A stretch of DNA of 64,000 nt. Source: Brucella sp. 21LCYQ03. Its GTDB lineage: Bacteria; Pseudomonadota; Alphaproteobacteria; Rhizobiales; Rhizobiaceae. Each line of letters begins with the position of its first letter. Position 1 is the first letter of the stretch. Location: assembly GCF_023554105.1 (NCBI RefSeq), contig NZ_JAMJWE010000013.1, forward strand, positions 1-64,000. Reading direction: 5' to 3'. The position numbers were made by a program, and so were the translations under genes. Positions 23,672-51,543 of this stretch are shown piece after piece. Below the pieces are notes generated by a model that had not been told where the DNA came from, did no database searches, and was given only the letters and a program-made list of their open reading frames with translations.

Positions 23672-23878
23672 TTATGAAATGCGCGAAGTTGCCCCTATCC
23701 GACCAAAAATGGCGATAAGGCCGGCGATTGCGGTAGCAAGTTGCAGCAATACATCAGTCAGTGCACCGTGATCCACGGTTTCGCTGACAAGACCAAACGC
23801 GCCCGCAAGCGAGAGAAAAATTGCGACCAATCCGGCCCAGACAGTGCGGGAAAGATACCATGCTTTATCGTCAGTCAT
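23672..23878 (-). CDS. Small holin-like membrane protein at the end of the GTA cluster
   Basis: The 68-residue protein has two hydrophobic helices (TVWAGLVAIFLSLAGAFGLV and VLLQLATAIAGLIAIFGRIG) and a basic tail (GATSRIS). The pattern (S-x-T-V-W-x-G-L ... GLIAIxGRIxATxR) is common in small phage proteins found beside endolysins, often called holin-like. GGAAG lies 8 bases before the ATG at 23878; an in-frame ATG at 23893 is also possible. It directly follows the megatron gene, so it is probably in the GTA operon. A lysis role is inference. Confidence 0.65.
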   Translation of the reverse strand: MTDDKAWYLSRTVWAGLVAIFLSLAGAFGLVSETVDHGALTDVLLQLATAIAGLIAIFGRIGATSRIS

Positions 23879-23894
23879 CAGATTTTCTTCCATG

Positions 23895-27701: not shown

Positions 27702-27704
27702 TGC

Positions 27705-28139
27705 TTAACTTTCTGGTTCGGGGAAAATAAAAGTTCCGGCAATACGCTTGCGCCATTGCGGCACCAGTGCCGAAGACATCACACGATGCCCCTCATAGGC
27801 ATGGATGAAACGGTTCTCGTGCACCATGATGCCAAGATGCTTGGCAGCCACATCGCAGCGCCAGCGAAAGATGAGCAAGTCGCCCGGCTGTGGATCAACA
27901 TCGCTGCGCTTCTGCATATGTCTTGATGCTGCTTCAATCAGCGGCTCACCTATCGCGGCCTCAGCCCAATCGGGCGCATAGGCAGTGGGTGTCTCTGGCT
28001 CCACGCCATAAAGCGCACGCCAGATACCACGCACCAGACCCAGACAATCACAGCTTATACCGCGTGTGGAAGCACCATGCCGGTAGGGTGTGCCGAGCCA
28101 GCGCTCAGTCTCGGTCAGAACTTTGTCGGCAATATTCAT
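27705..28139 (-). CDS. GTA NlpC/P60-family cell-wall peptidase (gp14-like)
   Basis: The 144-residue protein has the catalytic cysteine Cys32 in GISCDCLGLV and a histidine in HLGIMVHENRFIHAYEGH, as in NlpC/P60 hydrolases of phage tails. In RcGTA, gp14 sits in the tail tip and cleaves peptidoglycan during DNA entry. The start ATG at 28139 overlaps the hub gene stop at 28136. Confidence 0.93.
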   Translation of the reverse strand: MNIADKVLTETERWLGTPYRHGASTRGISCDCLGLVRGIWRALYGVEPETPTAYAPDWAEAAIGEPLIEAASRHMQKRSDVDPQPGDLLIFRWRCDVAAKHLGIMVHENRFIHAYEGHRVMSSALVPQWRKRIAGTFIFPEPES

Positions 28140-29011
28140 GGGACGAGCACACTCCCATCGTATTCGTTGCCGCCGCTGACATAGGCAAAGGCAGCATCAT
28201 TTCCGGGGAGATGCGGGAAGCCGCGAAAATTCAATCCATTGGCAAACTTCGCTTTACAGGTGGCAAAGCTTTTGTCGCATCCGGCAACAACGTGAAAACT
28301 ATCGCCCGGCTTTGCAGCCAGCACCGGCGGCTCTGTAAGGCTCAAACTTTTACCGCTATGCGCCACAACGCGCACCGATGCGCCCTGATTATCGCCGCTT
28401 GTCCATGTAAGCCGCCCCTGCGTAAACCAGCCGCTGGCGAAACCTTCAAGACCCGCGACGCTTAGCATAGCACCCTCAGCGCTCGCGACAGAACCATTCG
28501 CAAAAAAGCGCGGATCACTGATGCTAACGCCGCAGCGCTTTTCCCCCAGCACGGCATCACACTGACGTAGAACGCGCCTGCCGCAGACAGCATCAAAGGC
28601 CGCCGCAGCGCCCTTCAACTCCATCACAAAGCGACCACCTGAACGCGTGATCGCACCCACGGTCCAGCGCCGCAAAAGCATATGCTGGCCCGGTGCATTC
28701 CAGTTGGCGAGATAGCTTTCGACGACCGCACCATCAAAGCGCCCCTGCTCAATGTCCGTATCGCTGATGCGTGAAGACGACAATACGCCCTCCACATCGC
28801 CACCCGCGATTGCAAGACCAAGCGTTGTCGTGGCTTCACTGCTGTTGAGACCCGTCAGCGGCTCGCAGGAAATTCCATCGAGATCGAGCGTCCGGTCATG
28901 GTCCGTAAAGCCCATGACCACCTGATCGGAACGTCTGATAAGCCATGCAAAGCAATGGCTTGTTACTTCGCCCTTCAGATGTGATTCAAGTTGCGCGGGA
29001 ACAGGGATCAT
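28136..29011 (-). CDS. GTA hub protein, DUF2163 (gp13-like)
   Basis: The 291-residue protein has the DUF2163 opening (LKGEVTSHCFAWLIRRSDQ, MGFTDHDRTLDLDG) and the C-terminal FAVC-type cysteine region (GCDKSFATCKAKFANGLNFR, GFPHLPGNDAAF). In RcGTA the equivalent protein forms the tail hub and binds an iron-sulfur cluster. Four-base overlaps at both ends (29011/29008 and 28139/28136) indicate translational coupling. Confidence 0.93.
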   Translation of the reverse strand: MIPVPAQLESHLKGEVTSHCFAWLIRRSDQVVMGFTDHDRTLDLDGISCEPLTGLNSSEATTTLGLAIAGGDVEGVLSSSRISDTDIEQGRFDGAVVESYLANWNAPGQHMLLRRWTVGAITRSGGRFVMELKGAAAAFDAVCGRRVLRQCDAVLGEKRCGVSISDPRFFANGSVASAEGAMLSVAGLEGFASGWFTQGRLTWTSGDNQGASVRVVAHSGKSLSLTEPPVLAAKPGDSFHVVAGCDKSFATCKAKFANGLNFRGFPHLPGNDAAFAYVSGGNEYDGSVLVP

Positions 29012-29637
29012 GCCTTGACCTCAATAATCGGGATGGAAGGAATTTCACCCGCCTGAAAGGAGGCAATGCTGGCTGTCAGCCGATCTGTGTCGAAGCGAAC
29101 CGGCACATCGAACAGAAAGCCAGTCGTCACCTCAGCGCCCTCGGCAGGCACATAAGCTGGCGTAAAAGCTACGGCTCCCGTGGCATGATCAAGCGTATAA
29201 GCCTCGCCCTCGTTAAGCTTCACACCATCGACGCCAATCAGCACCGACCCCATGACTGGGCGCGTGACCGGGCGGCTGTAAGCCTCATATTGTTTGGCAA
29301 GCTGAAAGCGCGTTGTGACACCGTCGCCGGTTCCAATGCGCTGATCATCATGTGAGGGCGCGGCAGTTCCGTTTGCTGAGGAAAAATCAAACGGGTCACG
29401 AAAGCGGAATGCATGCAATGATCCGCGTCGTGCCTCAAAAAAGGCAAGCACTGTTTTCAGATCATCCAGCGAACGCAAGCCTGTACCTGCATCAAAATGC
29501 CTGCGCGAATGCGCCCAACGTGCATTGCGCTTTTCCATGCCTGAGGTGAGCGTAACAATTTCATTGCGCCATTCGGTCCCGGTAGTGGACCCGAAGGATA
29601 CGCCGAGCGGAAAACGTACATCATGAAAGGCTTCCAT
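29008..29637 (-). CDS. GTA distal tail protein, DUF2460 (gp12-like)
   Basis: The start at 29637 (MEAFHDVRFPLGVSFG) has GGAGG 8 bases upstream, at the end of the tape-measure gene; the frame is open to 29670. The DUF2460 hallmarks are TEWRNEIVTLTSGMEKRNAR, ARRGSLHAFRFRDPFDF and GVKLNEGEAYTLDHATG. It forms the ring at the distal end of the tail tube. Confidence 0.93.
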   Translation of the reverse strand: MEAFHDVRFPLGVSFGSTTGTEWRNEIVTLTSGMEKRNARWAHSRRHFDAGTGLRSLDDLKTVLAFFEARRGSLHAFRFRDPFDFSSANGTAAPSHDDQRIGTGDGVTTRFQLAKQYEAYSRPVTRPVMGSVLIGVDGVKLNEGEAYTLDHATGAVAFTPAYVPAEGAEVTTGFLFDVPVRFDTDRLTASIASFQAGEIPSIPIIEVKA

Positions 29638-29638
29638 C

Positions 29639-30187
29639 TCACATCCTCCGCGCGCCGCGGCGCACAGCACCCGCCAGCATGGTGGAAAGTTGCGCTTCAG
29701 ATTTGCGAAAGGATGATGCGTCAGGCGATGTCATGTTGAACACGACCTGCACAGGCTTAGCCCCGCCGCCGCCTGTGGCCACGCCCAGCCTGCCATCGGC
29801 ACCACGCGCCAGCGGAAGGATCGCTTCCGCACCCGCTTCGCCTGTCAAACCCAGCGAGCCGTTGCCCATGCCAAAATAAGTAGGGCTTGAAACCACCCCG
29901 CCCTTAGCGAAAGGCATGATGCCCCGGATGCCGCCCAGCACACCTGTTATCAGCGACGAGCCAAGATTTTGTAATGGCTGAAGACCCGCTGACAATGCCG
30001 ATCCCGCCAAACTGCTCGCAAGTCCGCGCAGCACATCCTCCAGTCCTTTACCGGAAACGACTGCACTTTTAAGAGCAGTCGTCAGGCTTGTTCCAAAGCT
30101 TGACGAACGCTTTTCAAGGTCGGTCAAAGCGCGATCAAAAGCACTCGTATCCGCCTCGACGGAAACGGTTACAGTTTCATCTGTCAT
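29639..30187 (-). CDS. GTA tail tape-measure protein (gp11-like), short
   Basis: The 182-residue protein has an N-terminal helix (DTSAFDRALTDLEKRSSSFG), a hydrophobic Gly/Ala/Leu region (about 55-95) and the conserved tail PFAKGGVVSSPTYFG, GEAGAEAILPLARGADGRLG found in GTA gp11 proteins. It is far shorter than tape measures of lambdoid phages, in line with the short tails of GTA particles. It lies between the chaperone genes and the distal tail gene. Confidence 0.9.
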   Translation of the reverse strand: MTDETVTVSVEADTSAFDRALTDLEKRSSSFGTSLTTALKSAVVSGKGLEDVLRGLASSLAGSALSAGLQPLQNLGSSLITGVLGGIRGIMPFAKGGVVSSPTYFGMGNGSLGLTGEAGAEAILPLARGADGRLGVATGGGGAKPVQVVFNMTSPDASSFRKSEAQLSTMLAGAVRRGARRM

Positions 30188-30193
30188 GTTTAA

Positions 30194-30409
30194 TCACCTG
30201 TCGGGAAAGGCATGCATCAGCGCGTCAAGTGTCGCGCGCGTAGGCGCATTTGCGCTCTGCGAAACGGGGCCGAGCACGGCACCAAGCTCGCGTGGCGTCA
30301 TCGCCCAGAAGTCTTTTGAAGAAAGCCGCAGCAGACAAAATCCAGCACGCATCACCTCATCCCACGGAAAAGGCTGGCGTGAAGGAGATGATTCAACTGC
30401 GGCACTCAA
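30194..30409 (-). CDS. Phage tail assembly chaperone (GTA gp10.1-like)
   Basis: The 71-residue protein contains FPWDEVMRAGFCLLRLSSKD and FWAMTPRELGAVLG, the signature of the small tail assembly chaperone (rcc01693-type) found after gp10 in GTA clusters. The ATG at 30409 overlaps the gp10 stop at 30406. Confidence 0.87.
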   Translation of the reverse strand: MSAAVESSPSRQPFPWDEVMRAGFCLLRLSSKDFWAMTPRELGAVLGPVSQSANAPTRATLDALMHAFPDR

Positions 30410-30744
30410 GGGTTTGAAGGAGAATCGCTTTCTGCGGTTCCGAAGGTCGCGGTGAGCAGTGCTGAAACGATACGCGCATAGCCGCTTGCACCGCCATCCG
30501 CTCGCATCTCCGCTACATCTTCAAACGGCACATCATGTCCACCGCCATGCAAACCGGCGCAGATAATGCGTTGCATATCGAAGGCCGAGAGCTTGCCACT
30601 GGAAAAGCGTGCAATGAGGTCGGAAAGATTGTCTGCCTCGAAAGCAGACTCAAGCTGTGCCAGCGCACCCAGCGTCAGGCAGAGAGTCCAGTCGCGACCA
30701 TCGAGTTTTGCCGCAACCTCGCCGCGATGGCGATTGACCATCAT
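30406..30744 (-). CDS. GTA family protein gp10-like
   Basis: The 112-residue protein contains NRHRGEVAAKLDGRDWTLCL, TLGALAQLESAFEADNLSDL and ADGGASGYARIVSALLTATF, characteristic of the GTA gp10 (GTA-TIM-related) family, thought to act in tail assembly with the following chaperone. It overlaps the tail tube gene by 4 bases (30744/30741). Confidence 0.9.
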   Translation of the reverse strand: MMVNRHRGEVAAKLDGRDWTLCLTLGALAQLESAFEADNLSDLIARFSSGKLSAFDMQRIICAGLHGGGHDVPFEDVAEMRADGGASGYARIVSALLTATFGTAESDSPSNP

Positions 30745-31154
30745 AGCGCTTCTCCGAAAGCAACCAGCCCTGCGGATTCGAGCGCGATTTCAAATGTTAC
30801 TTCCGCATCGTGATTGCCGCCATATTCCAGAGCGACAATCTGGAATGCACCGGTGATCGTGCCAAAGTCGGGTAGCACAATCTGCCAGTTGCGGATTTCG
30901 CCATTAAAAAAGATACTACGGATGAGAGCATCAGACGTTGCATCTTTGAATATGCCCGATCCACTGACCGAAGCGCGCTGCACGCCGCTTCCCGCAAGCA
31001 ATTGCCGCCAACGACCGGCGGCATCTGCATCTGTTACATCTACGGTTTCGGCGTTGAAAGCGATACGTTTGGTGCGCAGACCAGCACAGGTTTCATATTG
31101 GTCTGTGCCATGCGCGATTTTCAGCAAGATATCCTTGCCGCGTTGAGCTGTCAT
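30741..31154 (-). CDS. GTA major tail tube protein (gp9-like, TP901-1 family)
   Basis: The 137-residue protein begins MTAQRGKDILLKI and includes FNAETVDVTDADAAGRWRQL and IVALEYGGNHDAEVTFEIAL, the pattern of TP901-1-type major tail proteins. It should polymerise as the tail tube. The 121-base gap between it and the preceding tail-terminator gene contains a palindromic repeat and is one of the two large gaps in the cluster. Confidence 0.92.
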   Translation of the reverse strand: MTAQRGKDILLKIAHGTDQYETCAGLRTKRIAFNAETVDVTDADAAGRWRQLLAGSGVQRASVSGSGIFKDATSDALIRSIFFNGEIRNWQIVLPDFGTITGAFQIVALEYGGNHDAEVTFEIALESAGLVAFGEAL

Positions 31155-31199
31155 ATTTTGCTCCTGGCTCTATCTTTTTGTTTTACGCACATCTTGTCT

Positions 31200-31279
31200 G
31201 ATCAAAGCGGGATCAGAAATCAGTCTAGTTCACTGATTTCCCCGCGCAGGCGGTTCCCACTTTTCGGGATGTGCTCTAG
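31200..31279. repeat. Dispersed palindromic repeat, copy 2, inside the GTA cluster
   Basis: The right part, GCGGTTCCCACTTTTCGGGATGTGCTCTAG, is shown here in two pieces: GCGGTTCCCACTTTTCGGGA and TGTGCTCTAG. It matches the Rhizobiales intergenic repeat family also seen at 9257-9309. The left part has a perfect 9-bp inverted repeat, GAAATCAGT / ACTGATTTC. It lies between the tail-terminator and tail-tube genes and touches the end of the tail-terminator gene. Confidence 0.65.
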
Positions 31280-31686
31280 TTTGCCGGTTCGGTCACAGCG
31301 CGATAACGCATAGTGCCGAGATAGCTGCCGAACCCGTCTGTGTTGCGCGCTAAAACTTCGGTCAGCATGAGATTGATGACACGATGACCATCCAGATCGA
31401 GTGGTTCTTCGTCGAGACGCGTGGCGATGCGTCCAGCAATGTCGAGCACGCGTTTGCGTCCCGCCTCGCGCGCCCATATCTGGATATTGAGGAAATGCTC
31501 GCCGCCTCGTTCGCTCGCCGTGTTCCAGTCCTTGCTGAGCGTTTCACCCAGCGTAATGTAAGGAAAAGGCGTCTTTGGCGGCACATGATCAAAAACATGC
31601 TCGCCGCCAAGTGTTTCAATGAGTTCTTCGTCGTTCTTCAAGGCGTCATAAAGTGCTTTCTGCAATGCTGCCGCGCCATTCTTCAT
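31276..31686 (-). CDS. GTA tail terminator protein, DUF3168 (gp8-like)
   Basis: The protein contains AALQKALYDALKNDEELIET, TPFPYITLGE and LNIQIWAREAGRKRVLDIAG, the DUF3168 pattern of tail-completion proteins that cap the tail tube. The frame is open to an ATG at 31716. I prefer the ATG at 31686 (MKNGAAAL) because CGGGG lies about 6 bases upstream and the family usually starts here. The preceding small ORF overlaps this start. Confidence 0.9.
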   Translation of the reverse strand: MKNGAAALQKALYDALKNDEELIETLGGEHVFDHVPPKTPFPYITLGETLSKDWNTASERGGEHFLNIQIWAREAGRKRVLDIAGRIATRLDEEPLDLDGHRVINLMLTEVLARNTDGFGSYLGTMRYRAVTEPAN

Positions 31687-31822
31687 TCTGATCCCCGCTT
31701 GATTTTTCACGCTCATGTCGGGCGCCCAACTGCCCGAGAGAAATATCTTCCCGCATCGCCGTCTGACGGAACCGCAAAGCGCGAATGAGACCGTCGAAGG
31801 TGAGTTTCATCGTGACATTCAT
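31646..31822 (-). CDS. Small ORF (58 aa) between stopper and tail-terminator genes
   Basis: The ATG at 31822 overlaps the stopper stop codon (ATGA), and the reading frame runs MNVTMKLTFDGLIRALRFRQ to IAESTL and ends at 31646, within the tail-terminator gene. An internal ATG (MKLTF) lies at 31810. The product is basic in the middle and has no motif I recognise. The tight coupling and fill of an otherwise 133-base gap suggest a real gene; it has no clear counterpart in the RcGTA gene list that I can name. Confidence 0.5.
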   Translation of the reverse strand: MNVTMKLTFDGLIRALRFRQTAMREDISLGQLGARHEREKSSGDQNEEWRGSIAESTL

Positions 31823-32157
31823 CGCCCCTCCTCGACTGCCAAACAGATGAGATACCGCCCGCGTTCATCCGCATCGTGAACCGCGCGCAGCACAAAAATA
31901 CGCCCGCCTTTGCGAAAGCGTTTGTCCGAGGAAATGTCGTCCCGATAACGCACCAGAATACGATGTGTTATTTCCGGGCGTGGACGAATGCCAAAGTCCC
32001 GTTGACTGGTGGAGACAGGCTCAATGCGCCCCCACACTGTTCCAATTTCTGCCCATGTCTCACGATAACCACCCATGCCATCAGCAACCGGATGCATGGC
32101 TTCGAGGGCCAGCTCTGCCGTGAGCTGCCCCGGATCAATAAACAGGACATTGTTCAT
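31819..32157 (-). CDS. GTA head-tail stopper / head closure protein (gp7-like)
   Basis: The 112-residue protein contains YRETWAEIGTVWGRIEPVST, EITHRILVRYRDDI and FRKGGRIFVLRAVHDADERG, typical of phage head closure proteins (SPP1 gp16/HK97 gp10-like). It joins the connector to the tail. It overlaps the adaptor gene by 4 bases (32157/32154). Confidence 0.92.
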   Translation of the reverse strand: MNNVLFIDPGQLTAELALEAMHPVADGMGGYRETWAEIGTVWGRIEPVSTSQRDFGIRPRPEITHRILVRYRDDISSDKRFRKGGRIFVLRAVHDADERGRYLICLAVEEGR

Positions 32158-32714
32158 AGAGATATGCGCCGCCAGCTATCGACCATCTGTCCAACCATGG
32201 CAGGCAATTCTGCTTTTGATTCAGCAAGACCTGCGCGGTTTTCGTAGAGATATGCAGTAAGCGTCAGGATCGCTTGCTTGAGCGCATCCGGCACTTCCAC
32301 ACCGGTTTCGCCGAAGCCCGCAATGAAGTCGATCTCCAGACCGCAGAAGGTCTGCGCATCAGGGTATTGTGCCATGTAGACACGCTGCGGACGACGTCCA
32401 TGCTGAAGCATAAACTCTTCCGGTTCCATGCTGATTGCACTTCCATCCGGACGATATGCGACAACGGATGTGACTACTTTGACCGGATACTTGAACAGCG
32501 CCAGACGGCCTGAACGCGGCCAGCGATCAACGCGCAAACGCCATGTTTGATCAATAAGCGCCAGGCCTGTATCCACCTCGACCATCTCGCGCGCTGTTTT
32601 GATGATGCGGCGCAAAATCTCGTCTTCGCTTTCGGTCGAAATTCGCAAAAATGCGCGTGCATCTGCGATCGTCACCGGCTCCAGCGCCGGCGGCGTGACA
32701 AGAAACATTGTCAT
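32154..32714 (-). CDS. GTA head-tail adaptor protein (gp6-like)
   Basis: The 186-residue protein contains PVTIADARAFLRISTESEDE, ILRRIIKTAREMVEVDTG and LKQAILTLTAYLYENRAG, the signature of the connector/adaptor that binds below the portal. AAGGGG stands 8 bases before the ATG at 32714. A 131-base gap separates it from the capsid gene; it contains a weak CTGCC/GGCAG hairpin but no U-tract. Confidence 0.92.
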   Translation of the reverse strand: MTMFLVTPPALEPVTIADARAFLRISTESEDEILRRIIKTAREMVEVDTGLALIDQTWRLRVDRWPRSGRLALFKYPVKVVTSVVAYRPDGSAISMEPEEFMLQHGRRPQRVYMAQYPDAQTFCGLEIDFIAGFGETGVEVPDALKQAILTLTAYLYENRAGLAESKAELPAMVGQMVDSWRRISL

Positions 32715-32845
32715 GTATTTTCCCCTTAAATAACTCTCAAATCAGATAGTTACGCATGGCACCCCAGAAAGAGATTCAACGCGTTCGCAAATGGAATCTA
32801 GCTGCCAAAACCGGCAGGTAGATCGTGTCGCGGCATTGCAAAAAA

Positions 32846-34069
32846 TCAGGCGGCAAACTTCAGGAGCTTGATCGCATCAAAATCCTGCACACCACCGCCC
32901 ACGCGCTTGGTGGTGTAGAACAGCACATATGGCTTGGCAGAATATGGATCACGCAACACGCGTACACCAATGCGATCAACAACCAGATAGCCACGCTCGA
33001 AATCGCCAAAAGCAATCGGCGTACCATCGGCAGCGATGTCCGGCATGTGTTCGGCTTCGACGAGACCAAAGCCCATCAGCGATGCCTTTTCACCAACAGC
33101 CGCTGGAGGCTGCCAGAGGTAATTGCCATCAGCATCTTTGAGCTTACGAAGCACGCTCTGGGTCTTGCGGTTCATCACGAAATTTGCGTTCTGGCGATAC
33201 CCAGCCTTCAACGCATAAATGAGTTCGATAAGCTTATCGGATGGATCAGCAGCAGGTAGCGCTCCCGCAACACCCGTTTCAATATGGCCGATCTTGCCCC
33301 ATTCCCAGCTTGCATCCTCAACCGTGCTATAGCTCAAAAAACCCATCGGTTTATTGAGACCATTGCCAGTGATAAACGCTGCACCTTCCTGTTCGGCAAA
33401 GGCTGCTTCGACTTCTTCGGCAATCCACTGCTCCACATTCACGGCTGCATCGTCGAGGAGTGAAGCTGTTGCCGCTGGCATGGCGTAGATTTCCATGGTC
33501 GGAAACTGAAGTTCCGCGAGCTTTGCCGAGGCTGTCTGCGGACGCGCATCGGTTTCACCTACCCAGCCCGTTGCCGGGCCGCTCACCGAAAACGGCTTTT
33601 TCAGCACCGCACCGGAAACCTGACGGACACTGGAAATGCCACGGATCGGCGAGAGGACGGCCAGACGACGACCAATTTCGGTTTCAAGTTCAGCTGGCAC
33701 CAGATAGCCGCCATCGGGACCAGATGCATAAGAATGTGACTTCTGCTCGACACCGCGCAGCGCCTGTTCGTCGCCACGGCGAACATAGCCGTCAAAAGCC
33801 TGCTTATGCTCGACATCAACGATAGCGTTACTCTTGCCAAGCTGCGGGCGCGCGCTTTTCAGCACATACTGGTCAAGCGCCTGCTTCTGTTCGTCGAGTG
33901 CACGATTGATACGATCAACCTTATCGCGCAGCAGCACATCCACGTCCGCACTCTTCTCGACCTTTTTCAGACGTTCATCATTGGCTTCTCGGAACGCCGA
34001 GAAGGCAGTCATAAACTCGTCAAAAGCTTCCGAAACATCGCCGTTATTCCCAAGCGCCTTCGTTTCCAC
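32846..34069 (-). CDS. GTA major capsid protein, HK97 fold (gp5-like); start probably disrupted
   Basis: The 407 residues include an N-terminal coiled coil (FREANDERLKKVEKSADVDV, about 25-70) that acts as a scaffold removed by the protease, then the HK97-type capsid domain (PDGGYLVPAELETEIGRRLA; AGYRQNANFVMNRKTQSVLR; FGDFERGYLVVDRIGVRVLR). The longest frame starts with a GTG at 34069, which has no ribosome site. A strong AGGA-ATG start lies at 34107-34105 but is one base out of frame: adding one A to the A6 run (34103-34098) would join it as MEKNHAIPLETNSVETKAL. This could be a real frameshift, slippage or a sequence error. Confidence 0.9.
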   Translation of the reverse strand: METKALGNNGDVSEAFDEFMTAFSAFREANDERLKKVEKSADVDVLLRDKVDRINRALDEQKQALDQYVLKSARPQLGKSNAIVDVEHKQAFDGYVRRGDEQALRGVEQKSHSYASGPDGGYLVPAELETEIGRRLAVLSPIRGISSVRQVSGAVLKKPFSVSGPATGWVGETDARPQTASAKLAELQFPTMEIYAMPAATASLLDDAAVNVEQWIAEEVEAAFAEQEGAAFITGNGLNKPMGFLSYSTVEDASWEWGKIGHIETGVAGALPAADPSDKLIELIYALKAGYRQNANFVMNRKTQSVLRKLKDADGNYLWQPPAAVGEKASLMGFGLVEAEHMPDIAADGTPIAFGDFERGYLVVDRIGVRVLRDPYSAKPYVLFYTTKRVGGGVQDFDAIKLLKFAA

Positions 34070-34119
34070 GCTGTTGGTTTCGAGCGGGATTGCATGATTT
34101 TTTCCATTTTTGATCCTGA

Positions 34120-34788
34120 TTAGTTAAGTGACATCATCTTGCAGGCGGCGCGCATACGCTGCGCAAGCGCTGCATCATCTGCCCGGAAAGCGTCCCGCCC
34201 GTCCTGGCCCTGTAAGGCTGCAAGTGCTGAATAGCCTTTGGCTATAACCAGACGTGCAGCAGAACGACTTAGCCCCGCATCCCGCGTGAGCCAGCGTTCA
34301 AACTCTCTGACTGTTGGCAAATCCGCCTTGAGATTATTGATCCGCGCCTGTGGCAGCATCGGAAACGTCACCACCGAGATTTCCCAGAGGTCTGCTTCCG
34401 CTATGTGCCGCAACCCAGTGCGCGCATCCTTGCGTGCTTTGACGGTGCGAAAACCAATCGACAAGCCATCGAGCCCGCCAGCCCGCATCAGTTCGAGCGC
34501 TTCGCGGGCACGTGCCACACCCTTGGCAAGTCTGCCCTCAACATAAAGTCCACGCGCATCTTCACGAATATCCGTCCATACGCCGATCGGCTCAGCCGCA
34601 TCATGCTGCCAGAGCATGCGCACGCCGGACGATTTTCGCGAAGCAAGCGACTTTGCAAACGCACCTTTTTCGATCACATCATTTCCGAGATCAGCTAACC
34701 CGAACACACTGGCATAGCCTGAAAAGCTGCCGTCAATTTCGATCTCTTCGAGCGCCAGTGATGCACGTTTTGTTTCAAGCTTGGTCAT
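34120..34788 (-). CDS. GTA prohead protease (gp4-like, HK97 family)
   Basis: The ATG at 34788 has AAAGGAG 6 bases upstream; the frame is open to 34830. The product contains GSFSGYASVFGLADLGNDVI, WQHDAAEPIGVW (with the catalytic His) and a Ser in the GGLDGLSIGFRTVKA segment, as in HK97-type prohead proteases. It should process the capsid N-terminal scaffold. The C-terminal part (LPTVREFERWLTRDAGLSRS) is typical of GTA versions. It overlaps the upstream small membrane protein gene by 14 bases. Confidence 0.92.
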   Translation of the reverse strand: MTKLETKRASLALEEIEIDGSFSGYASVFGLADLGNDVIEKGAFAKSLASRKSSGVRMLWQHDAAEPIGVWTDIREDARGLYVEGRLAKGVARAREALELMRAGGLDGLSIGFRTVKARKDARTGLRHIAEADLWEISVVTFPMLPQARINNLKADLPTVREFERWLTRDAGLSRSAARLVIAKGYSALAALQGQDGRDAFRADDAALAQRMRAACKMMSLN

Positions 34789-35152
34789 TCCGGCTCCTTT
34801 GCGAAAATGGGAAACCGGGAAGCGGTGCATGTTTCATGCGTTCCGCAAAACGCTTGAGAATACCAAGCACCGACCATGCGGCAAGACTTGCAGCCGTTGC
34901 GCCCATCAGCATCACCTCGGCACGACCAAGCAGCGGTTCAAGTGACAGTGTTTCGGCAATTTTCACGCCCGCTGCACCGCCAAAAACCATGCCGCAGATA
35001 ATGCCGACAGCAAAACGAATGCCAGCCTCACGCTTGCCATTTGGCAACATATAAGCAAGCGACACGGCAGAACCGGCGACCGCCCCGGCAATCTTCGCGA
35101 ACCACACCAATGTCGCATCAGATGTCATCACGGTTTCACTCAGATTACTCAT
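34775..35152 (-). CDS. Small membrane protein of the GTA head module (DUF6107-like, gp3.5 position)
   Basis: The 125-residue protein has three hydrophobic stretches: FAKIAGAVAGSAVSLAYMLP, FAVGIICGMVFGGAAGVKIA and VMLMGATAASLAAWSVLGIL. A protein of this kind lies between portal and protease genes in Rhizobiales GTA clusters (comparable in position to RcGTA g3.5). Its function is unknown. It overlaps the portal gene by 4 bases (35152/35149) and the protease gene by 14, so it is clearly part of the operon. Confidence 0.82.
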   Translation of the reverse strand: MSNLSETVMTSDATLVWFAKIAGAVAGSAVSLAYMLPNGKREAGIRFAVGIICGMVFGGAAGVKIAETLSLEPLLGRAEVMLMGATAASLAAWSVLGILKRFAERMKHAPLPGFPFSQRSRNDQA

Positions 35153-36342
35153 GGTGCTCTCCTTTTTGCGCGTGGCTGATAACCAACCGCATCGCGTTTC
35201 TCATCGTCACTCAGGAACGACGCTTCTGAGACGCGCCGCCATAACGATTCACGTTCCAGCGAAAGGCCTTCAATGCGATCCGTGTCATGCTCAAGCCTAA
35301 GATCGTCACCGAAAATTGGCCCGAGCCAGCACCCGAAAGCCTTTGCCGTGCGATTGATCAGCGGCAGCACAGTCAGGCGATAGAAAGCGCGATTGGCCTC
35401 GGCATAATTGGCATAGGTATTGTCGCCCGGAATGCCGAGCAGCATTGGCGGCACACCAAATGCCAACGCGACATCGCGAGCAGCACCATTCTTCGCCTCT
35501 ATGAAATCCATATCCTGAGGGCTGTAACCCATCGCTTTCCAGTCAAGCCCACCTTCAAGCAGCAGCGGACGCCCGGCACCAGCAGCGCCTGTGTAGCCTT
35601 CCTCAAGTTCAGTTTTGAGCCGGTCGAACTGTTCTTCGGTCAGGTTGCCGCCGTCTTTCGGTGCGTAGACCAGCGCACCAGAAGGACGCGCAGAATTATC
35701 GAGCAAAGCCTTGTTCCAGGCACCAGCCGCGTTGTGCAGATCAAGCGCCATGAGGGCTGCTTCAAGGGGCGGAAAACCATAATGATCATCCAGCGGATGA
35801 AATAACTTCAGATGCAAACCAGCGGAAGCCGCACCCGCAAGCGAGACAACACGGCTCGTATTGGCTGAGCGATAGACCAGCGATTGCGGCCAACCATCGC
35901 TCGATGTTTCAAGCGTCACCCTTTCAGGTCGCAACAAATGCAACTCGCTTCGTCCGCTCGGAAGATCGACACGCTCCACATAAGCATTACCCGAAATCAG
36001 CAAGTGTCCGTAAAGCCGCTCAAAGAAGCTGCTGCTATCCAACCCGCCTTGCGGCTGCGCAATAAGATCGAGCAGCGGATGCGTTTCATGCTCGGTCGTG
36101 CCCTCATAAAGCAGCCACGGCACATTGCTGGCCGCTTCCGCGATCAGGCGCACACAGCGATGCGCCACCGGATTGCGCATAAAGCCCTCACGTGCCAGCG
36201 AGGTATAATCCCGCGCAATCCATGACGGCCCACGTTCCATATGCAGGGCAACAAAACCTTGCGCGCTCTTTCTCTCGCGCCCCGCATCAGAATATGAGGG
36301 TGCGTTCGCGGCAGCTTTACGCCACGGCCAGTTCCACGCCAT
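35149..36342 (-). CDS. GTA portal protein (gp3-like, HK97 family)
   Basis: The 397-residue protein contains VAHRCVRLIAEAASNVPWLL, LLISGNAYVERV and FGVPPMLLGIPGDNTYANYA, the signature of HK97-type portals that form the dodecameric DNA channel. The ATG at 36342 (MAWNWPWRK) has GGAG 9 bases upstream; a TTG at 36357 would lack a ribosome site. It begins 27 bases after the terminase stop. Confidence 0.94.
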   Translation of the reverse strand: MAWNWPWRKAAANAPSYSDAGRERKSAQGFVALHMERGPSWIARDYTSLAREGFMRNPVAHRCVRLIAEAASNVPWLLYEGTTEHETHPLLDLIAQPQGGLDSSSFFERLYGHLLISGNAYVERVDLPSGRSELHLLRPERVTLETSSDGWPQSLVYRSANTSRVVSLAGAASAGLHLKLFHPLDDHYGFPPLEAALMALDLHNAAGAWNKALLDNSARPSGALVYAPKDGGNLTEEQFDRLKTELEEGYTGAAGAGRPLLLEGGLDWKAMGYSPQDMDFIEAKNGAARDVALAFGVPPMLLGIPGDNTYANYAEANRAFYRLTVLPLINRTAKAFGCWLGPIFGDDLRLEHDTDRIEGLSLERESLWRRVSEASFLSDDEKRDAVGYQPRAKRRAP

Positions 36343-36369
36343 ATATCGGCTCTCCAATGATTGTAAAAA

Positions 36370-37662
36370 TTACCCGAAACGCCGGATACGCGGCTTTCGA
36401 TCAGCCCCCAGCATCAGTTCAGTTAGCGCCCACACCATCGCATCAAGACGATCCGGTGAACGGCCACTCGAAAGGCCTTCGGGTGCGAAGTCGCACATTT
36501 CGTCTTCGATTGCTGTAAAGCGCCCGGCATGACGAACACGCCCCTGCTCATAAAGTGCTGCCACCGGCTCGGCGCGAAGCCATTTGCCTCGCGATGCATG
36601 CCGCATCAGCACGGGGACCGTCGCATCTTCCGCTGCCAGAACAGCGGCAACCATCTCACCGCCCTGATTAACTTCGGCCAGCACCGCATCGGCCTCATAT
36701 TCATGATAAAGTGCAATTGCCCGCCGCGCCCATTGATGCGGCTTAGCCATTTTCATGCTTTCATCAGCCAGCACATGCGCAATGCCATTTTCGTCGATAC
36801 CAGCCACAACAATCCCACAGGCATTGGACGATTTTCCCGATGAAGCCGGCGGATCAATCGCGACCAGAATACGGATCAACTCAGGAGCGGACTGTTCAAA
36901 ACATTGTTCAATCCGCTCACGCGACCACAATGCTCCGGCGCGTTCTTCAATCAATTCGCCGTCGAGTTCCTGTCGCCCCAGCCGCGTACCCGCATAACGC
37001 TGATTGATCGTTTCAATAAAACCACTCGCAAGATGCTCTGCATTCTCTGATGTTCGCATATGCGTCATCGCAACCGCATTGTCGGTCATCAATGATTTCA
37101 GCAATGGAACCGCGCGCGGTGTTGTCGTCACCACCTGACGCGGAAAGCTCCCCAATCGCAGACCAAACTGCAACATGTCCCAAGTGGCTTGCGGATTTTT
37201 CCACTTTGCCAGTTCGTCACACCACGCCGCATCAAATTGCGGACCACGTAAGCCGTCTGGATCTTCGGACGAATAAAGTGACGCCACCGCACCATTATCC
37301 CAGAGCAGTCGGCGCCTGGTCGCCTCATATCGTGGGCGCGACAAACGCGAGACCGACAATATACCAGAAGGGCCATCTACCATGACCTCACGAGCATCGG
37401 CAAAAGTTTCGCCTACCAGTGCAATATGCCCGCAATGTCGCGAAGAGAATGGTGCAAGCCCCAATGCCATTCCCGATACCCATTCCGCCCCTGCTCGCGT
37501 TTTCCCCGATCCGCGCCCACCCAGAATAAGCCATGTGCGCCAGTCACCAGACGGTGGCAGTTGCGCATCACGTGCGCTGAGCAGCCACTCTTTGTTCAAC
37601 GCCATGATCTGATTTTGCGTCAAGTCCGCCGCCCAGGATTTCCCGTGCGCGCCTTTTTGCAA
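36370..37662 (-). CDS. GTA large terminase, ATPase/nuclease (gp2-like)
   Basis: The ATPase domain has Walker A ILGGRGSGKTRAGAEW and Walker B FDAAWCDELAKW, and the RNase H-like nuclease domain has ILVAIDPPASSGKSSNACGI and SPDRLDAMVWALTELML. It packages host DNA into GTA heads by a headful-type mechanism. The longest frame starts with TTG at 37662 (AGGAG about 10 bases upstream); an ATG at 37605 (MALNKEWLLSARDAQLP) is the alternative. Either way it overlaps the small terminase gene. Confidence 0.95.
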   Translation of the reverse strand: MQKGAHGKSWAADLTQNQIMALNKEWLLSARDAQLPPSGDWRTWLILGGRGSGKTRAGAEWVSGMALGLAPFSSRHCGHIALVGETFADAREVMVDGPSGILSVSRLSRPRYEATRRRLLWDNGAVASLYSSEDPDGLRGPQFDAAWCDELAKWKNPQATWDMLQFGLRLGSFPRQVVTTTPRAVPLLKSLMTDNAVAMTHMRTSENAEHLASGFIETINQRYAGTRLGRQELDGELIEERAGALWSRERIEQCFEQSAPELIRILVAIDPPASSGKSSNACGIVVAGIDENGIAHVLADESMKMAKPHQWARRAIALYHEYEADAVLAEVNQGGEMVAAVLAAEDATVPVLMRHASRGKWLRAEPVAALYEQGRVRHAGRFTAIEDEMCDFAPEGLSSGRSPDRLDAMVWALTELMLGADRKPRIRRFG

Positions 37663-38077
37663 GTTCGTTAATTCTCCTGTCTATACGAGCAAGCGCCGCT
37701 TTAACCTCAACGAGGCCCACCAGCCCAGTGTCATTACTGGTTTCCACAGCACCCGTTTCAGTCGAAAGCTCGCCCACGGTTTTCACAGCCTTAGCCAACG
37801 CCATCAAAGCTTCAGCCTTACCCTTATCCGGCAGTTCCTCAGCATCTATCAGCTTGTTGAGTTCGCTCTGCAATCGTTGCAGAGCAGTGTCCGTGGCGGA
37901 CGGCTTGATGAGTGCTTTCTCATCCAGACCAATGACCTTCAGCCACTGAAGATATTGTTTTTCTGTATATCCCATCACCTCGGCAATCTCAGCCGAAACG
38001 ATGTCGTGTTTCATTTGCAGGCAAAAAGCCAGCCTGACACGCGCCTCCCGGCGCTCGTCCATTTTTTGCGTTTTCAA
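37568..38077 (-). CDS. GTA small terminase-like protein (gp1-like)
   Basis: The protein has an N-terminal helix-turn-helix-like region (SAEIAEVMGYTEKQYLQWLK), a central coiled coil (ALQRLQSELNKLIDAEELPD; KAEALMALAKAVKTVGEL) and a basic C-terminus (AALARIDRRINELAKRRARE). Its position ahead of TerL fits RcGTA gp1. I place the start at the TTG at 38077, with GGAAG 6 bases upstream; TTG 38083 and ATG 38062 are alternatives. It is the first gene of the 14-kb cluster. Confidence 0.8.
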   Translation of the reverse strand: MKTQKMDERREARVRLAFCLQMKHDIVSAEIAEVMGYTEKQYLQWLKVIGLDEKALIKPSATDTALQRLQSELNKLIDAEELPDKGKAEALMALAKAVKTVGELSTETGAVETSNDTGLVGLVEVKAALARIDRRINELAKRRAREILGGGLDAKSDHGVEQRVAAQRT

Positions 38078-38083
38078 CGGCAA

Positions 38084-38390
38084 CTTCCGCTAACTTAGTC
38101 TTTCTCATGCAAAACCCCGAAAGCATGATGCTTCCGGGGTTTTGCAATAAGGATGAAAGCCGGGGGTACTACAGCTCTCATCCAGATCAGTCACACTTTT
38201 CTGACTGTACCTAATTGATAGCAAAGCACCGTTACGCCGTCAAGGACTATTTTCCTATTTAAGATTTTTTTCTTGTGTCACTTTCTGAAATTCGTTTACG
38301 AATTAACATGAGTTATGGCTTAATTATCTGATATGATTAAGTGGCAGGTTCTGCTCGTCTCGCAACTTTTACGATTAAAAAGTAGAGTTC
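38084..38390. other. Divergent leader region between the GTA cluster and the PBP gene
   Basis: This 307-base region holds a terminator-like hairpin (38109-38145), a CAGTCA / TGACTG inverted repeat (38188-38207) and three TTAA tetranucleotides spaced exactly 17 bases apart (38303, 38320, 38337). The GTA promoter should be here, but I cannot point to -35/-10 boxes with confidence. No ORF or RNA gene is evident. Confidence 0.5.
38109..38145. terminator. Terminator-like hairpin in the GTA leader
   Basis: The 18-base arms, GCAAAACCCCGAAAGCAT and ATGCTTCCGGGGTTTTGC, differ from a perfect inverted repeat at one position. The GC stem flanked by A4/T4 gives a bidirectional intrinsic terminator shape. 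It lies only about 30 bases upstream of the first GTA gene start, between two divergent genes, where no transcript obviously needs to end. Confidence 0.7.
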
Positions 38391-46772: not shown

Positions 46773-47198
46773 ATGACCACGACAATCGACAGCATCATTT
46801 CCGACTTCGAATTTCTCGACGATTGGGAAGATCGCTATCGCTATGTTATTGATCTCGGGAAAGAACTCCCTGCCTATCCCGACGATGCACGCGATGCTGC
46901 GCACAAGGTTCAGGGCTGCGTTAGTCAGGTCTGGCTTAAGACCATTCCGCATGAAGGTTCTGACCCAATCATCGACTTTCTCGGTGATTCCGACGCGCAT
47001 ATCGTGCGTGGACTGGTTGCTATCGTGCTCGCGTTTTATTCAGGGCGCAAAGCTTCCGAAATCGTGGCATCCGACCCGGAAGAGGTTCTCAAGAAACTGG
47101 GGCTGGACGAACATCTAACGCCGCAGCGCTCCAATGGACTGCGCTCAATGGTGGCGCGTATACGCCGCGATGCGGAAGCGCTTAAAGCGTCAGCTTAA
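46773..47198 (+). CDS. sufE: SufE-family cysteine desulfuration protein
   Basis: The 141-residue protein has the SufE active-site Cys49 in KVQGCVSQVWL and the family segments WEDRYRYVIDLGKELP and IVRGLVAIVLAFYSGR. It accepts persulfide sulfur from the cysteine desulfurase SufS for Fe-S cluster assembly. No suf genes are adjacent, so it may be the stand-alone SufE-like protein of alphaproteobacteria. Its 3' end overlaps the convergent amidase gene by 9 bases. Confidence 0.92.
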   Translation: MTTTIDSIISDFEFLDDWEDRYRYVIDLGKELPAYPDDARDAAHKVQGCVSQVWLKTIPHEGSDPIIDFLGDSDAHIVRGLVAIVLAFYSGRKASEIVASDPEEVLKKLGLDEHLTPQRSNGLRSMVARIRRDAEALKASA

Positions 47199-48555: not shown

Positions 48556-49338
48556 TCAATTTTGCCGTGGACGTGCTGCAGGGCGATAATCCTCTGCACC
48601 CCAGTGAACAATACCCGTGGAACGGGGTTCCCTGCCTGAATGCGGATTATAATGCCTATGCAGCATCGAAAGCCCCATTTTGAGCAACATTTTCCCGGAA
48701 CGGACTGGCCATTGGCGCTCCCGTTCCACGAGTTCCAGCCCCTTTAAGAAGCAACAAACATCGATAAGCACGCCGCTTAGTTCAGGTCCAACGGCTTCCA
48801 AAGCGCGCTCGACACGCATCCGGCTTGCCAGCGCGATATCTGTAAATTCAGCCATACCTCCCGGCCCCGAACGCGTGGAATTACCAACGCCCACATCCCA
48901 CCGTGCTGAAATCGAAGGCATCATCGCCCCCCGTGTGAAATCTGAACGCAGCCGTTCTCCTGCCCGAAACTCGTCCTCAGAAATAAAGCTTATACCTGCA
49001 CCATTGCGAAGCCTGAAAAGCTTCGTCAATGGCGATTCAGAAGGATTAATTTCAACCTTCTCACCATATTCAAGCTCTATAGTTTCAGTTTTCCGCGCGG
49101 TAGCTGGCTTTTTCTCAGCGCTCTTTCGTGCTTGAGATGCCAGTACAAGCCGACCGTCGTTACACAGCAAAATGCCACTTTTTCGCATCGCATCAAGTTC
49201 ATTACGCGTTGCTGCAATCGTACCGTGATCAGCCACAAGCAAAACATGGGTGTCACGTACAGAATCCTGGACTTCGCATCCACCTTGTTTCAAAAAACGG
49301 ATGATTCTTGCTTCGGACGTCGAATACATTTCACTCAA
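48556..49338 (-). CDS. DUF6456 protein, probable GafZ-like half of the split GTA activator
   Basis: The TTG at 49338 has GGAGG 8 bases upstream and overlaps the stop of the preceding gene (TTGA); the ATG at 49329 is too far from the ribosome site. The 260-residue product has an N-terminal winged-helix-like part (EARIIRFLKQGGCEVQDSVR; ATRNELDAMRKSGILLCNDG) and a C-terminal DUF6456 domain (FRAGERLRSDFTRGAMMPSI; SGVLIDVCCFLKGLELVERE). In Rhodobacter this domain forms the C-terminal part of GafA, which contacts RNA polymerase; in Caulobacter and many Rhizobiales GafA is split in two. The link to the GTA cluster at 23.9-38.1 kb is inference. Confidence 0.7.
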   Translation of the reverse strand: MSEMYSTSEARIIRFLKQGGCEVQDSVRDTHVLLVADHGTIAATRNELDAMRKSGILLCNDGRLVLASQARKSAEKKPATARKTETIELEYGEKVEINPSESPLTKLFRLRNGAGISFISEDEFRAGERLRSDFTRGAMMPSISARWDVGVGNSTRSGPGGMAEFTDIALASRMRVERALEAVGPELSGVLIDVCCFLKGLELVERERQWPVRSGKMLLKMGLSMLHRHYNPHSGREPRSTGIVHWGAEDYRPAARPRQN

Positions 49339-49787
49339 GCTGCCATCCTCCAATCCGAGAATCCAACGTTAACGAGTTTTTCCAATGCGGAAACCACCGC
49401 ATCGTAATCCGGGTCATCTCGCCGATCTTCAACGAGATGGCATGCATACATGACAGTCGTGCGTTCACGAGAGAAGCCAGCCGCCACTTCGCCCATGACC
49501 ATACCGAAAGAGGTGTGGGCCAGATACATGCCTAGTTGCCGAACCTGTGCAACCTCTCTTCTGCACCGTAAAGGCGAACGCAATTCTAACCCGCTCACAC
49601 CGAAGTATGCTGATAACAAATCGATCAGCGCTTCGCAGATTTCGACATTCTTTTCCTGACGTCGACGCCCAAGAGCTGGACCAGAATGATCCAAACTTAT
49701 TGCTCGCCCATGTCGCGCCGCGATGACTTTTAAAGCCTCTACAGCTTCTGCACGGGTATGGATGATATCCGGGATTTTGAGAGACAT
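49335..49787 (-). CDS. DnaA-domain-IV-like DNA-binding protein, probable GafY-like half of the GTA activator
   Basis: The 150-residue protein has a C-terminal helix-turn-helix resembling DnaA domain IV (VRQLGMYLAHTSFGMVMGEV, GFSRERTTVMYACHLVED), in which the DnaA signature D-H-T-T is replaced by E-R-T-T. It lacks the ATPase domain, so it is not DnaA. With the DUF6456 gene that it overlaps by 4 bases, it matches the two halves of GafA (GafY, GafZ), the direct activator of GTA genes. GAGG precedes the ATG at 49787. A CtrA-like site and a DnaA box lie about 110-130 bases upstream. Confidence 0.7.
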   Translation of the reverse strand: MSLKIPDIIHTRAEAVEALKVIAARHGRAISLDHSGPALGRRRQEKNVEICEALIDLLSAYFGVSGLELRSPLRCRREVAQVRQLGMYLAHTSFGMVMGEVAAGFSRERTTVMYACHLVEDRRDDPDYDAVVSALEKLVNVGFSDWRMAA

Positions 49788-49895
49788 GCATCTTTCCTCG
49801 TCGTTATAGGAATATGTTCTTATAATGAGGATTTTGCAAGCGGGGATAAGTTTATTGAAGCATTATTCGAATTGTGTATCCACTAATTTCTCGCA

Positions 49896-49916
49896 TTAAT
49901 AGGAATTTTATCCACA
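49896..49916. promoter_or_regulatory. CtrA-like site TTAA-N7-TTTA overlapping a perfect DnaA box
   Basis: TTAA (49896-49899), seven bases, then TTTA (49907-49910) match 7 of 8 bases of the CtrA consensus TTAA-N7-TTAA. The second half overlaps TTATCCACA (49908-49916), a perfect DnaA box. Two weaker box-like sequences are nearby (GTATCCACT at 49876; TTATCCCC on the minus strand near 49845). The region separates the GafY-like gene from a small plus-strand gene. Confidence 0.5.
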
Positions 49917-49974: not shown

Positions 49975-50295
49975 ATGGAATTAGCCCTTAGGAAAGCCAG
50001 TAATGAGTTTATTGCAAAGCGGGACGATGAACGTATGGGGGCAATGCAGCGCGCAGCCCTGCAAATTCTAGCTGGCATTGATATGGACGAGCTGCTGAGT
50101 GCCTCGCAAGACGAGAAAAATCATGCGGAAAGCAGATTAGTCCGACTTATAGAGCGGGAACGCTTGAAGGGCATCAATGGCCATTGGAGCTATGATCTCA
50201 ACAAGCACATTGCTTTAAAACAGGCGCTGGACAGATTACTCGGCAGACCAATCGTTACACGATCATTCAAAAGGTCTGCGGCTTGTTTTTTATAA
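49975..50295 (+). CDS. Hypothetical 106-aa protein
   Basis: The protein is mostly helical and charged (MELALRKASNEFIAKRDDER; DEKNHAESRLVRLIERERLK; HWSYDLNKHIALKQALDRLL), with no membrane segment or motif I recognise. GAGAGATAG precedes the ATG. It is transcribed away from the GafY-like gene and shares its control region, so it may be co-regulated. It is likely a real gene because of the ribosome site and the isolated open frame in a non-coding setting. Confidence 0.65.
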   Translation: MELALRKASNEFIAKRDDERMGAMQRAALQILAGIDMDELLSASQDEKNHAESRLVRLIERERLKGINGHWSYDLNKHIALKQALDRLLGRPIVTRSFKRSAACFL

Positions 50296-50391: not shown

Positions 50392-50820
50392 TTATGCGCC
50401 CTTAGGCTTGCGGCCCAAACCCATCTTCTTTGCAAGACGCGAACGTGCTGCTGCATAGTTTGGAGCGACCATTGGATAGCTAGGATCAAGATCCCACTTT
50501 TCGCGGTATTGTTCAGGCGTCATGCTGTAATGGGTCATCAGATGGCGCTTAAGCGACTTGAACTTTTTACCGTCTTCCAGGCAAATGATGTAATCATCAT
50601 GAACGGACTTCTTAGGATTGACAGCTGGCTTAGGCTTTTCGACGACGACCGGCGCTTCTTCACGCACAACATGACTTTTGAAAGCAGCATGTACTTCTGA
50701 AATCAGGAGAGGCAGCTCACTTGCGCGAATAGAATTATTTCCAACATAAGCGGCAACAACATCAGCAGTTAGGCTGAGAAGCAATTCTGCGCTCTCGTCG
50801 TAGACTTCAGGGTTTTCCAT
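50392..50820 (-). CDS. mucR: MucR/Ros-family zinc-finger regulator
   Basis: The 142-residue protein has an N-terminal oligomerisation domain (about 10-50) and a Ros/MucR finger: Cys80-x2-Asp83 ... His93-x3-His97 in [20 protein letters not shown], followed by the basic tail ([18 protein letters not shown]). MucR is a global nucleoid-type repressor in Brucella and rhizobia that binds AT-rich promoters, including its own. The second zinc ligand is Asp rather than Cys, as in several MucR homologues. AAAGGAAA precedes the ATG at 50820; the frame is open to 50937. The 720-base AT-rich upstream region fits autoregulation. Confidence 0.92.
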
Positions 50821-51543
50821 TTTTTTTCCTTTATGGTCGTTCTTCATATCAAACAGACTATTGCTCTCAAAAACCTGAGTGCGATCTGTGCGAATTCTTC
50901 GGCCCTGCCCAACATTAACCCGCGATGCAATTAACAATGAATAGTGCCATTTGCAATAGAATTGTCAAACCACATTACATTAAAAGAACGAAATTCTTCT
51001 TATGCAGACAAATAAAACAGTCAGATATGCAAAAATGATATGTCGAATGTTTGATTTTTTGCAGATCGCGCCAATTTTGGCTCCATACTGTATTCGAAAA
51101 ATTAAGGGGAGAGTGACAAAGCGTCTATAGTTCTCACTTAGTTTACAAGACAAACAGAAGCAACCATTTTTTACGCAAGCTTTTTAACATTGGCTAAAAC
51201 AACCATACCTCACTACGAAAAATTATGGGTAAGGACTGAGGCAGCAAAAAGGCAGGTTTCGAATATAACAATCTCATACCAGACTGGATTCAACAATGAC
51301 ATCAAATATATATGCCAACCAACTTGGAAATCCGATGGCCTACACGGAAGATTTACCTGAAAAATGAGTGGCGTACATCAAATACGCACTATATCCTTTG
51401 GAGATCGGGTTTTGATACCGTTTGGTTGAACAATCCTATCAGGCATTTTGTTCTAATCGATATTCCACTCTATCTTTGTTCCGCCCTATTCGCATGATGC
51501 TCTAAACTTCAAAAATGCTATGCTCCACCCAGAGGAGAGAAAA
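50821..51543. other. AT-rich intergenic region between mucR and msrB
   Basis: This 723-base region is markedly AT-rich with many TpA steps and A/T runs, the kind of DNA that MucR proteins bind. The only open frame (51312-51497) has no ribosome site and an odd composition, so I do not call it. I see no tRNA, no terminator and no repeat; a small RNA cannot be excluded. Confidence 0.5.

Follow-up and report, generated by a model that had tools for sequence, protein, structure and literature searches.

Gene transfer agents (GTAs) are domesticated viruses by which some bacteria hand DNA to one another. Split forms of their activator gene gafA, with sufE and mucR as neighbours, have already been published for Hyphomicrobiales (in the available text of Sherlock and Fogg 2022, PMC9638019), and the accessible part of Fogg 2019 (PMC6363796) holds an example of a split gafA. 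For Caulobacter, the available text of PMC9632790 describes RogA as a protein with a helix-turn-helix (HTH) and an S24-like domain without catalytic residues, which occupies two GGAA-N4-TTCC repeats in the gafYZ core promoter, and that of PMC11150451 describes GafZ as reading through a terminator located after gtaT. Here we analysed a 64,000-nucleotide stretch of Brucella sp. 21LCYQ03 (contig NZ_JAMJWE010000013.1, positions 1 to 64,000; hereafter the window), in which two overlapping genes, gafY and gafZ, probably encode the split GTA activator GafY-GafZ; we put the probability of this reading at roughly 0.8. The gene pair itself is a further example of the already published type, and the most interesting open point is its survival after loss of the GTA. 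In GTDB the 4.59-Mb host genome is placed in the genus Brucella (Ochrobactrum group), a genus with Brucella, Ochrobactrum and Falsochrobactrum species, and comparisons within the genus covered 35 species genomes, each labelled G with a number. All regulatory steps given below for gafYZ and the GTA are predictions from sequence.

The gafY-gafZ gene pair

The two genes lie on the minus strand of the window:

49335 to 49787, minus strand: gafY-like gene, 150 aa, DnaA domain IV (HTH) and no ATPase, from Pfam, NCBIfam and PDB matches
48556 to 49338, minus strand: gafZ-like gene, 260 aa, DUF6456 (Pfam, E = 5.1e-41), with a TTG start in a 4-nt TTGA overlap

The original prediction of a DnaA-domain-IV-like protein without an ATPase domain was borne out. 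Pfam placed Bac_DnaA_C (PF08299; E = 1.8e-12) at residues 52-117 of the 150-residue GafY-like protein and gave it no ATPase domain, NCBIfam assigned it to NF004686 (PRK06030.1-1, 'hypothetical protein') at 216 bits against a cut-off of 148, and its top PDB matches were structures of DnaA domain IV (3pvp, E = 3.4e-6; 1j1v, E = 1.2e-4). The gafZ-like protein is the only match to DUF6456 in the whole genome. A PDB profile search with GafZ returned one match, at E = 0.82, and in the viral fold library phage DUF6456 proteins came up, one of them from Roseobacter phage RDJL Phi 1, and two matches had E ≤ 0.001. The likeness of GafZ to the phage 21 Q antiterminator (Q21) is a lead only, because fold comparison of the domain alone did not recover Q21.

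With TTG at 49338 as the start of gafZ, the genes share four nucleotides (TTGA), with a GGAGG inside the upstream gene, as had been predicted; the GGAGG stands 8 nt before the start. This start is the probable one rather than a given, because the listing of open reading frames (ORFs) chose an in-frame TTG at 49353, which makes the overlap 19 nt. In 33 of the 35 genus genomes, our own included and G005 and G012 left out, the junction was without exception NTGA preceded by a Shine-Dalgarno sequence (ATGA in 28, GTGA in 3 and TTGA in 2), and therefore the overlap is conserved and TTG is its rare form. The arrangement suggests translational coupling. Equimolar synthesis of the two proteins, which had also been proposed, was rejected, as a 4-nt overlap points to coupling and does not show equal amounts; this clause of the original prediction is unsupported, and its identification of the pair with the two halves of GafA retains the support of both domain signatures, the sufE/mucR neighbourhood and an RcGTA-type cluster nearby.

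Searching across the class with the GafZ alignment gave a match in 23 of 144 genomes, our own among them. With GafY matches called at E = 0.01, the 22 others comprised 13 with a separate neighbouring GafY ORF, 8 with no GafY and one (L228) with a single ORF. The latter encodes 356 aa with tblastn matches to both GafY and GafZ; its DUF6456 match is strong (E = 1.2e-52) and its GafY part weak (E = 7e-5), Pfam reporting there DUF6456 and only weak HTH matches, with no DnaA_C. The single ORF fits a view of GafY and GafZ as two halves of one protein. Separately, at L225:832-2019 (plus strand), in the same family as the L228 genome, one reading frame holds matches to both GafY and GafZ, with a single stop between them.

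Genomic neighbourhood and the GTA cluster

The following genes surround the pair or make up the GTA locus:

46773 to 47198, plus strand: sufE-like gene, named by eye from sequence and published synteny
49975 to 50295, plus strand: 106-aa gene, divergent from gafY and sharing its upstream region; no Pfam, PHROG or NCBIfam match
50392 to 50868, minus strand: mucR-like gene (PF05443, E = 2.1e-49)
23672 to 38083, minus strand: RcGTA-type structural cluster (small first gene, terminase, portal, DUF6107, capsid, connector, tail, megatron and holin-like genes)
34775 to 35152, minus strand: DUF6107 gene (PF19602, E = 2.4e-31), often kept in eroded relatives

Amidase and sufE genes lie on one side of the pair and the 106-aa gene and mucR on the other. 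Among 68 gafZ loci named from one scan, 61 of them outside the genus, the neighbours were sufE in 68, mucR in 65, GafY in 64, the 106-aa gene in 58 and the amidase gene in 9. The end of gafZ (48556) and the first GTA gene (38083) are 10.5 kb apart, close to the 11 kb first estimated, and the main GTA ORFs are open in our genome. When 60 genomes were searched, our own included, gafZ was matched in 56 and the terminase in 53; in the 27 genus genomes whose terminase match spans most of the protein, the two lie on one contig, 6-15 kb apart (a count that includes G005, a poor assembly whose terminase has stops). The linkage is not peculiar to the 64-kb window.

A motif shared by the gafY and GTA promoters

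Alignment of the upstream regions yielded these elements:

49809 to 49822, plus strand: putative proximal RogA-type operator GGAATATGTTCTTA, in the region of the likely gafY -10 and start (repeat GGAA-N4-TTCC from PMC9632790)
49819 to 49824, minus strand: likely gafY -10, TATAAG, which shares bases with the proximal operator (block almost invariant across 33 genomes)
49844 to 49853, minus strand: conserved, near-invariant AAACTTATCC, DnaA-box-like (gafY promoter alignment, 33 genomes)
49900 to 49913, plus strand: putative distal RogA-type operator TAGGAATTTTATCC, upstream of gafY
38244 to 38257, minus strand: putative RogA-type operator TAGGAAAATAGTCC, abutting the GTA -35
38215 to 38243, minus strand: predicted GTA core promoter TTGACG, 17 bp, TATCAA, with conserved spacer GCGTAACGG (34 genus loci aligned)
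38188 to 38207, minus strand: conserved inverted repeat CAGTCA-N8-TGACTG, close to where GTA transcription is expected to begin

The 33 aligned gafY upstreams share TGGATAANATTCCTA, AAACTTATCC and a TATAAG overlapped by a TTCCTA repeat; DnaA, GafY or some other factor might recognize the second of these. On the GTA side, the interval from the first GTA gene to the divergent PBP gene was aligned for 34 genus loci and contains a near-invariant block that in the window reads TAGGAAAATAGTCC, followed directly by TTGACG, a 17-bp spacer and TATCAA. By these alignments, the motif common to the gafY and GTA promoters is conserved and operator-like. In our genome an exact TAGGAAWWTWRTCC occurs in two places, the gafY promoter and the GTA promoter; with one mismatch allowed there are four more, giving 6 in total against 12 for a control pattern. 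Across the 35 genus genomes the exact pattern occurs 61 times (30 at gafY promoters, 29 at GTA promoters, 2 at other places), whereas the control pattern occurs 5 times; the count is partly circular because the pattern was drawn from those promoters.

Outside the genus, we scored the 61 named loci with a matrix built from the genus sites, using a threshold of 12 bits and dinucleotide shuffles as the control. The threshold was reached in 13 of 55 gafY upstreams and in 15 of 41 PBP-gene upstreams, which were taken as the GTA side with GTA presence not confirmed locus by locus; sufE (0/61), mucR (0/58) and kinase gene (0/21) upstreams had none, and shuffled gafY and PBP-gene upstreams reached it in 2 of 275 and 2 of 205 cases, respectively. 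A full TAGGAA-N4-TTCC stands upstream of gafY in L115, L134, L142 and L147, and the TTCT variant occurs at several GTA-side promoters, all outside the genus. Compared with the RogA repeat, the window sites read GGAA-TATG-TTCT and GGAA-TTTT-ATCC at gafY and GGAA-AATA-GTCC at the GTA.

The motif might instead be a site for GafY, serving autoregulation and GTA activation, a reading that ranks behind a repressor operator in view of the RogA repeat published in PMC9632790. In the available text of PMC11150451, Caulobacter GafY has about 20 binding sites, which include the gafYZ and GTA promoters, the GafY element described there contains ACTATG, to be set beside GGACTATTTTCC on the reverse strand of the GTA site, and the GTA copy of the motif abuts the -35, a position where activators act too. 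Weighed against these points, the dyad TAGGAA-N4-TTCCTA matches the published RogA repeat, the gafY promoter carries two copies, as published for RogA, and the motif is exact at only two promoters in our genome, fewer than the roughly 20 GafY sites of Caulobacter. DnaA domain IV, moreover, reads an asymmetric box, which counts against GafY as the reader of a dyad. We regard a GafY site as a minority possibility, and a direct repressor site at the GTA promoter as somewhat better than an even bet.

A candidate for the repressor was sought among S24 proteins, of which our genome has two matches, LexA (by eye) and a 217-aa protein that we propose as candidate RogA:

L203:1483-2136, minus strand: proposed RogA homologue, 217 aa, S24 domain

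This protein is full length in 34 of the 35 genus genomes, the exception being G005, where it is in pieces. Pfam reported no HTH family in it. By eye, the S24 Ser and Lys seem kept, unlike in the description of Caulobacter RogA; if they truly are, damage-induced cleavage of the candidate would be possible. If the 217-aa protein is RogA, the GTA would be locked at two levels, unlike in Caulobacter.

A covarying hairpin in the GTA leader

Between the predicted GTA promoter and the first GTA gene lies a further element, supported by covariation:

38108 to 38146, minus strand: terminator-like hairpin in the GTA leader, ahead of the first gene

In 28 of the 34 genus loci, 10-19 base pairs form a hairpin that begins 84-103 nt past the -35. 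Covariation was computed on 21 of the 28 (G001, G015, G016, G021, G024, G030 and G032 were left out); 98.1% of cells were paired, 7 of 15 pairs had changed on both sides, and none of 500 shuffles reached the observed share of paired cells, number of pairs or cells with changes on both sides, or covariation score. Pairing fell to 25-61% when the partner was slid, a comparison in which the hairpin is favoured, as its structure was written from the same sequences. Several of the hairpins end in a T run, and in the window the Ts are within the stem. The placing of the hairpin before the first GTA gene resembles that in lambda, where a terminator lies behind the late promoter. The hairpin is a plausible target for GafZ antitermination, and we consider a leader-terminator step evenly balanced between right and wrong.

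Proposed circuit

From the Caulobacter work (PMC9632790, PMC11150451) and the elements described here, we propose that GafY would bind upstream DNA through its DnaA-like HTH and recruit sigma-70 polymerase, and that GafZ, through DUF6456 with its putative sigma-4-like HTH, would load near the promoter and let polymerase pass terminators, the first of which would be the hairpin in the leader ahead of the first GTA gene. A HTH-S24 repressor of the RogA type would close not only the gafYZ promoter but also, in a departure from Caulobacter, that of the GTA; with both promoters shut, the system would thus be locked twice until the repressor leaves. The proposal addresses two open questions, how GTAs stay silent and why hosts keep them. 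Among the titles and abstract openings searched, none described an operator at the GTA promoter or a leader terminator in this genus.

Several observations weigh against this circuit. In the cluster itself, the GTA tape-measure match reached 137 bits, below the NCBIfam cut-off of 220. With regard to the operators, each of the RogA-type sites in the window is imperfect, with one half-site deviating; only the test outside the genus is partly independent of the promoters from which the pattern was derived, and there 42 of 55 gafY upstreams and 26 of 41 GTA-side upstreams fell below threshold. Caulobacter RogA was enriched only at the gafYZ promoter and one other gene, not at the GTA promoter, in the available text of PMC9632790, and the 217-aa candidate was set beside it by description only. 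A consensus promoter scan of the window did not report the GTA promoter, and no Caulobacter-like GafZ palindrome was evident by eye in the strongly conserved -35/-10 spacer. As to the leader, no hairpin stands at the expected place in 6 of the 34 loci (G008, G009, G013, G025, G027 and G029), the count of further pair types was reached by 70 of the 500 shuffles, and a consensus terminator scan of the window did not report the hairpin.

Persistence of the pair after GTA erosion

Full capsid and full terminase genes are both wanting at the locus in nine of the 35 genus genomes (G001, G008, G009, G011, G016, G017, G023, G024 and G030), a count outside which G005, a poor assembly in pieces, was kept; a full-length capsid match is present in 25 of the 35. 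In these nine eroded clusters, which form a natural experiment on whether the activator has a role apart from gene transfer, gafY is open in all nine and gafZ in eight. The exception is G001, where gafZ is in three pieces; in this assembly, which is prone to fragments (85% complete, 7% contaminated), the amidase and PBP genes are broken up too. All nine genomes keep a full-length S24 candidate, both motif sites are exact in 7/9 (G024 and G030 keep the gafY site only), and the DUF6107 gene is at or near full length in 7/9, the exceptions being G016 and G030.

The ratio of nonsynonymous to synonymous rates (dN/dS) was estimated for 22 chosen pairs and includes the time before the losses. Eroded and intact pairs were alike, at 0.06-0.11 and 0.05-0.13 for gafY and 0.06-0.19 and 0.07-0.17 for gafZ, respectively. 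For each gene, 21 of the 22 pairs fell within 0.05-0.19; the exception, G008-G017 (0.49 and 0.33), has almost no synonymous change. G001, G008 and G017 share a deletion junction that leaves the DUF6107 gene directly behind the conserved GTA promoter, and between G008 and G001 the stretch from promoter to DUF6107 gene consists of blocks 75-90% identical, except one short block (62% of 13). Between G001 and either G008 or G017, dN/dS is 0.18-0.20 for gafY and 0.05-0.19 for the gafZ pieces, low values that speak for upkeep of gafYZ after the loss; that of the DUF6107 gene is 0.30-0.31, a weaker constraint. These ratios speak for purifying selection on gafYZ after GTA deletion, with G001 error, locus exchange and slow decay remaining as alternatives.

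A single GTA loss behind all eroded genomes was considered and rejected: G009 fails to align with G008 between promoter and DUF6107 gene (29-61% identity past the promoter block), and by its gafY it is nearer to G028 (dS 0.21) than to G008 (dS 0.43). G028 itself has a full-length capsid gene and one stop inside its terminase match.

The pair might outlive the GTA cluster because GafY-GafZ also, or mainly, serve a host job, such as an HdaB-like influence on replication or the switching on of host genes. The open genes and exact motif sites of the eroded genomes, together with the low ratios across the shared G001/G008/G017 junction, favour such a job, and GafY was originally described as HdaB, according to the available text of PMC9632790; in that same text, Gozzi et al. 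attribute the HdaB effects to the GTA. Several of the erosions look independent and may be recent, exchange of the locus between species could mimic a shared old deletion, and the gafY ratio is higher in the pairs that involve the fragment-prone G001. We regard a host job as a minority possibility. That the pair is an inert relic and the GTA not made is very improbable: GTA erosion is common in the genus, but the ORFs of the pair and the main GTA ORFs of our genome are open, dN/dS is low in all but one pair for each gene, and the overlap is conserved in all 33 genomes examined.

Joining these strands, a RogA-GafYZ switch might, in this genus, directly silence both the GTA promoter and gafYZ, release the GTA through leader antitermination, and have been kept by selection after deletion of the particle genes, with the promoter now before the DUF6107 gene, which would make it more than a GTA regulator. 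As a whole we regard this as speculative and less likely than not; if true, the RogA-GafYZ switch would serve a host function that outlives gene transfer.

Comparison with known systems

The closest arrangement is the split gafA of Hyphomicrobiales, for which the available text gives the same order, a DnaA-like gene followed by a DUF6456 gene with sufE downstream and mucR upstream; the window differs in having an amidase gene between gafZ and sufE. Rhodobacter GafA (rcc01865), by the part of its description available, likewise combines an N-terminal DnaA-like HTH with a C-terminal DUF6456 part carrying a sigma-like HTH, but does so in one polypeptide, whereas the window encodes two proteins. 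The wiring around the pair looks like a variant of the Caulobacter GafYZ-RogA-IHF circuit. In common with that circuit, as far as the available text describes it, are the two-gene operon, RogA-type repeats at the gafYZ promoter, here putative and imperfect, and GafZ as antiterminator, the last predicted here. In contrast, the window has a putative RogA-type site that also abuts the GTA -35, a near-consensus -35, and a terminator-like leader hairpin instead of repeats after gtaT. The predicted repressor site at the GTA promoter and the leader terminator provide parts of the switch that can be tested outside Caulobacter.
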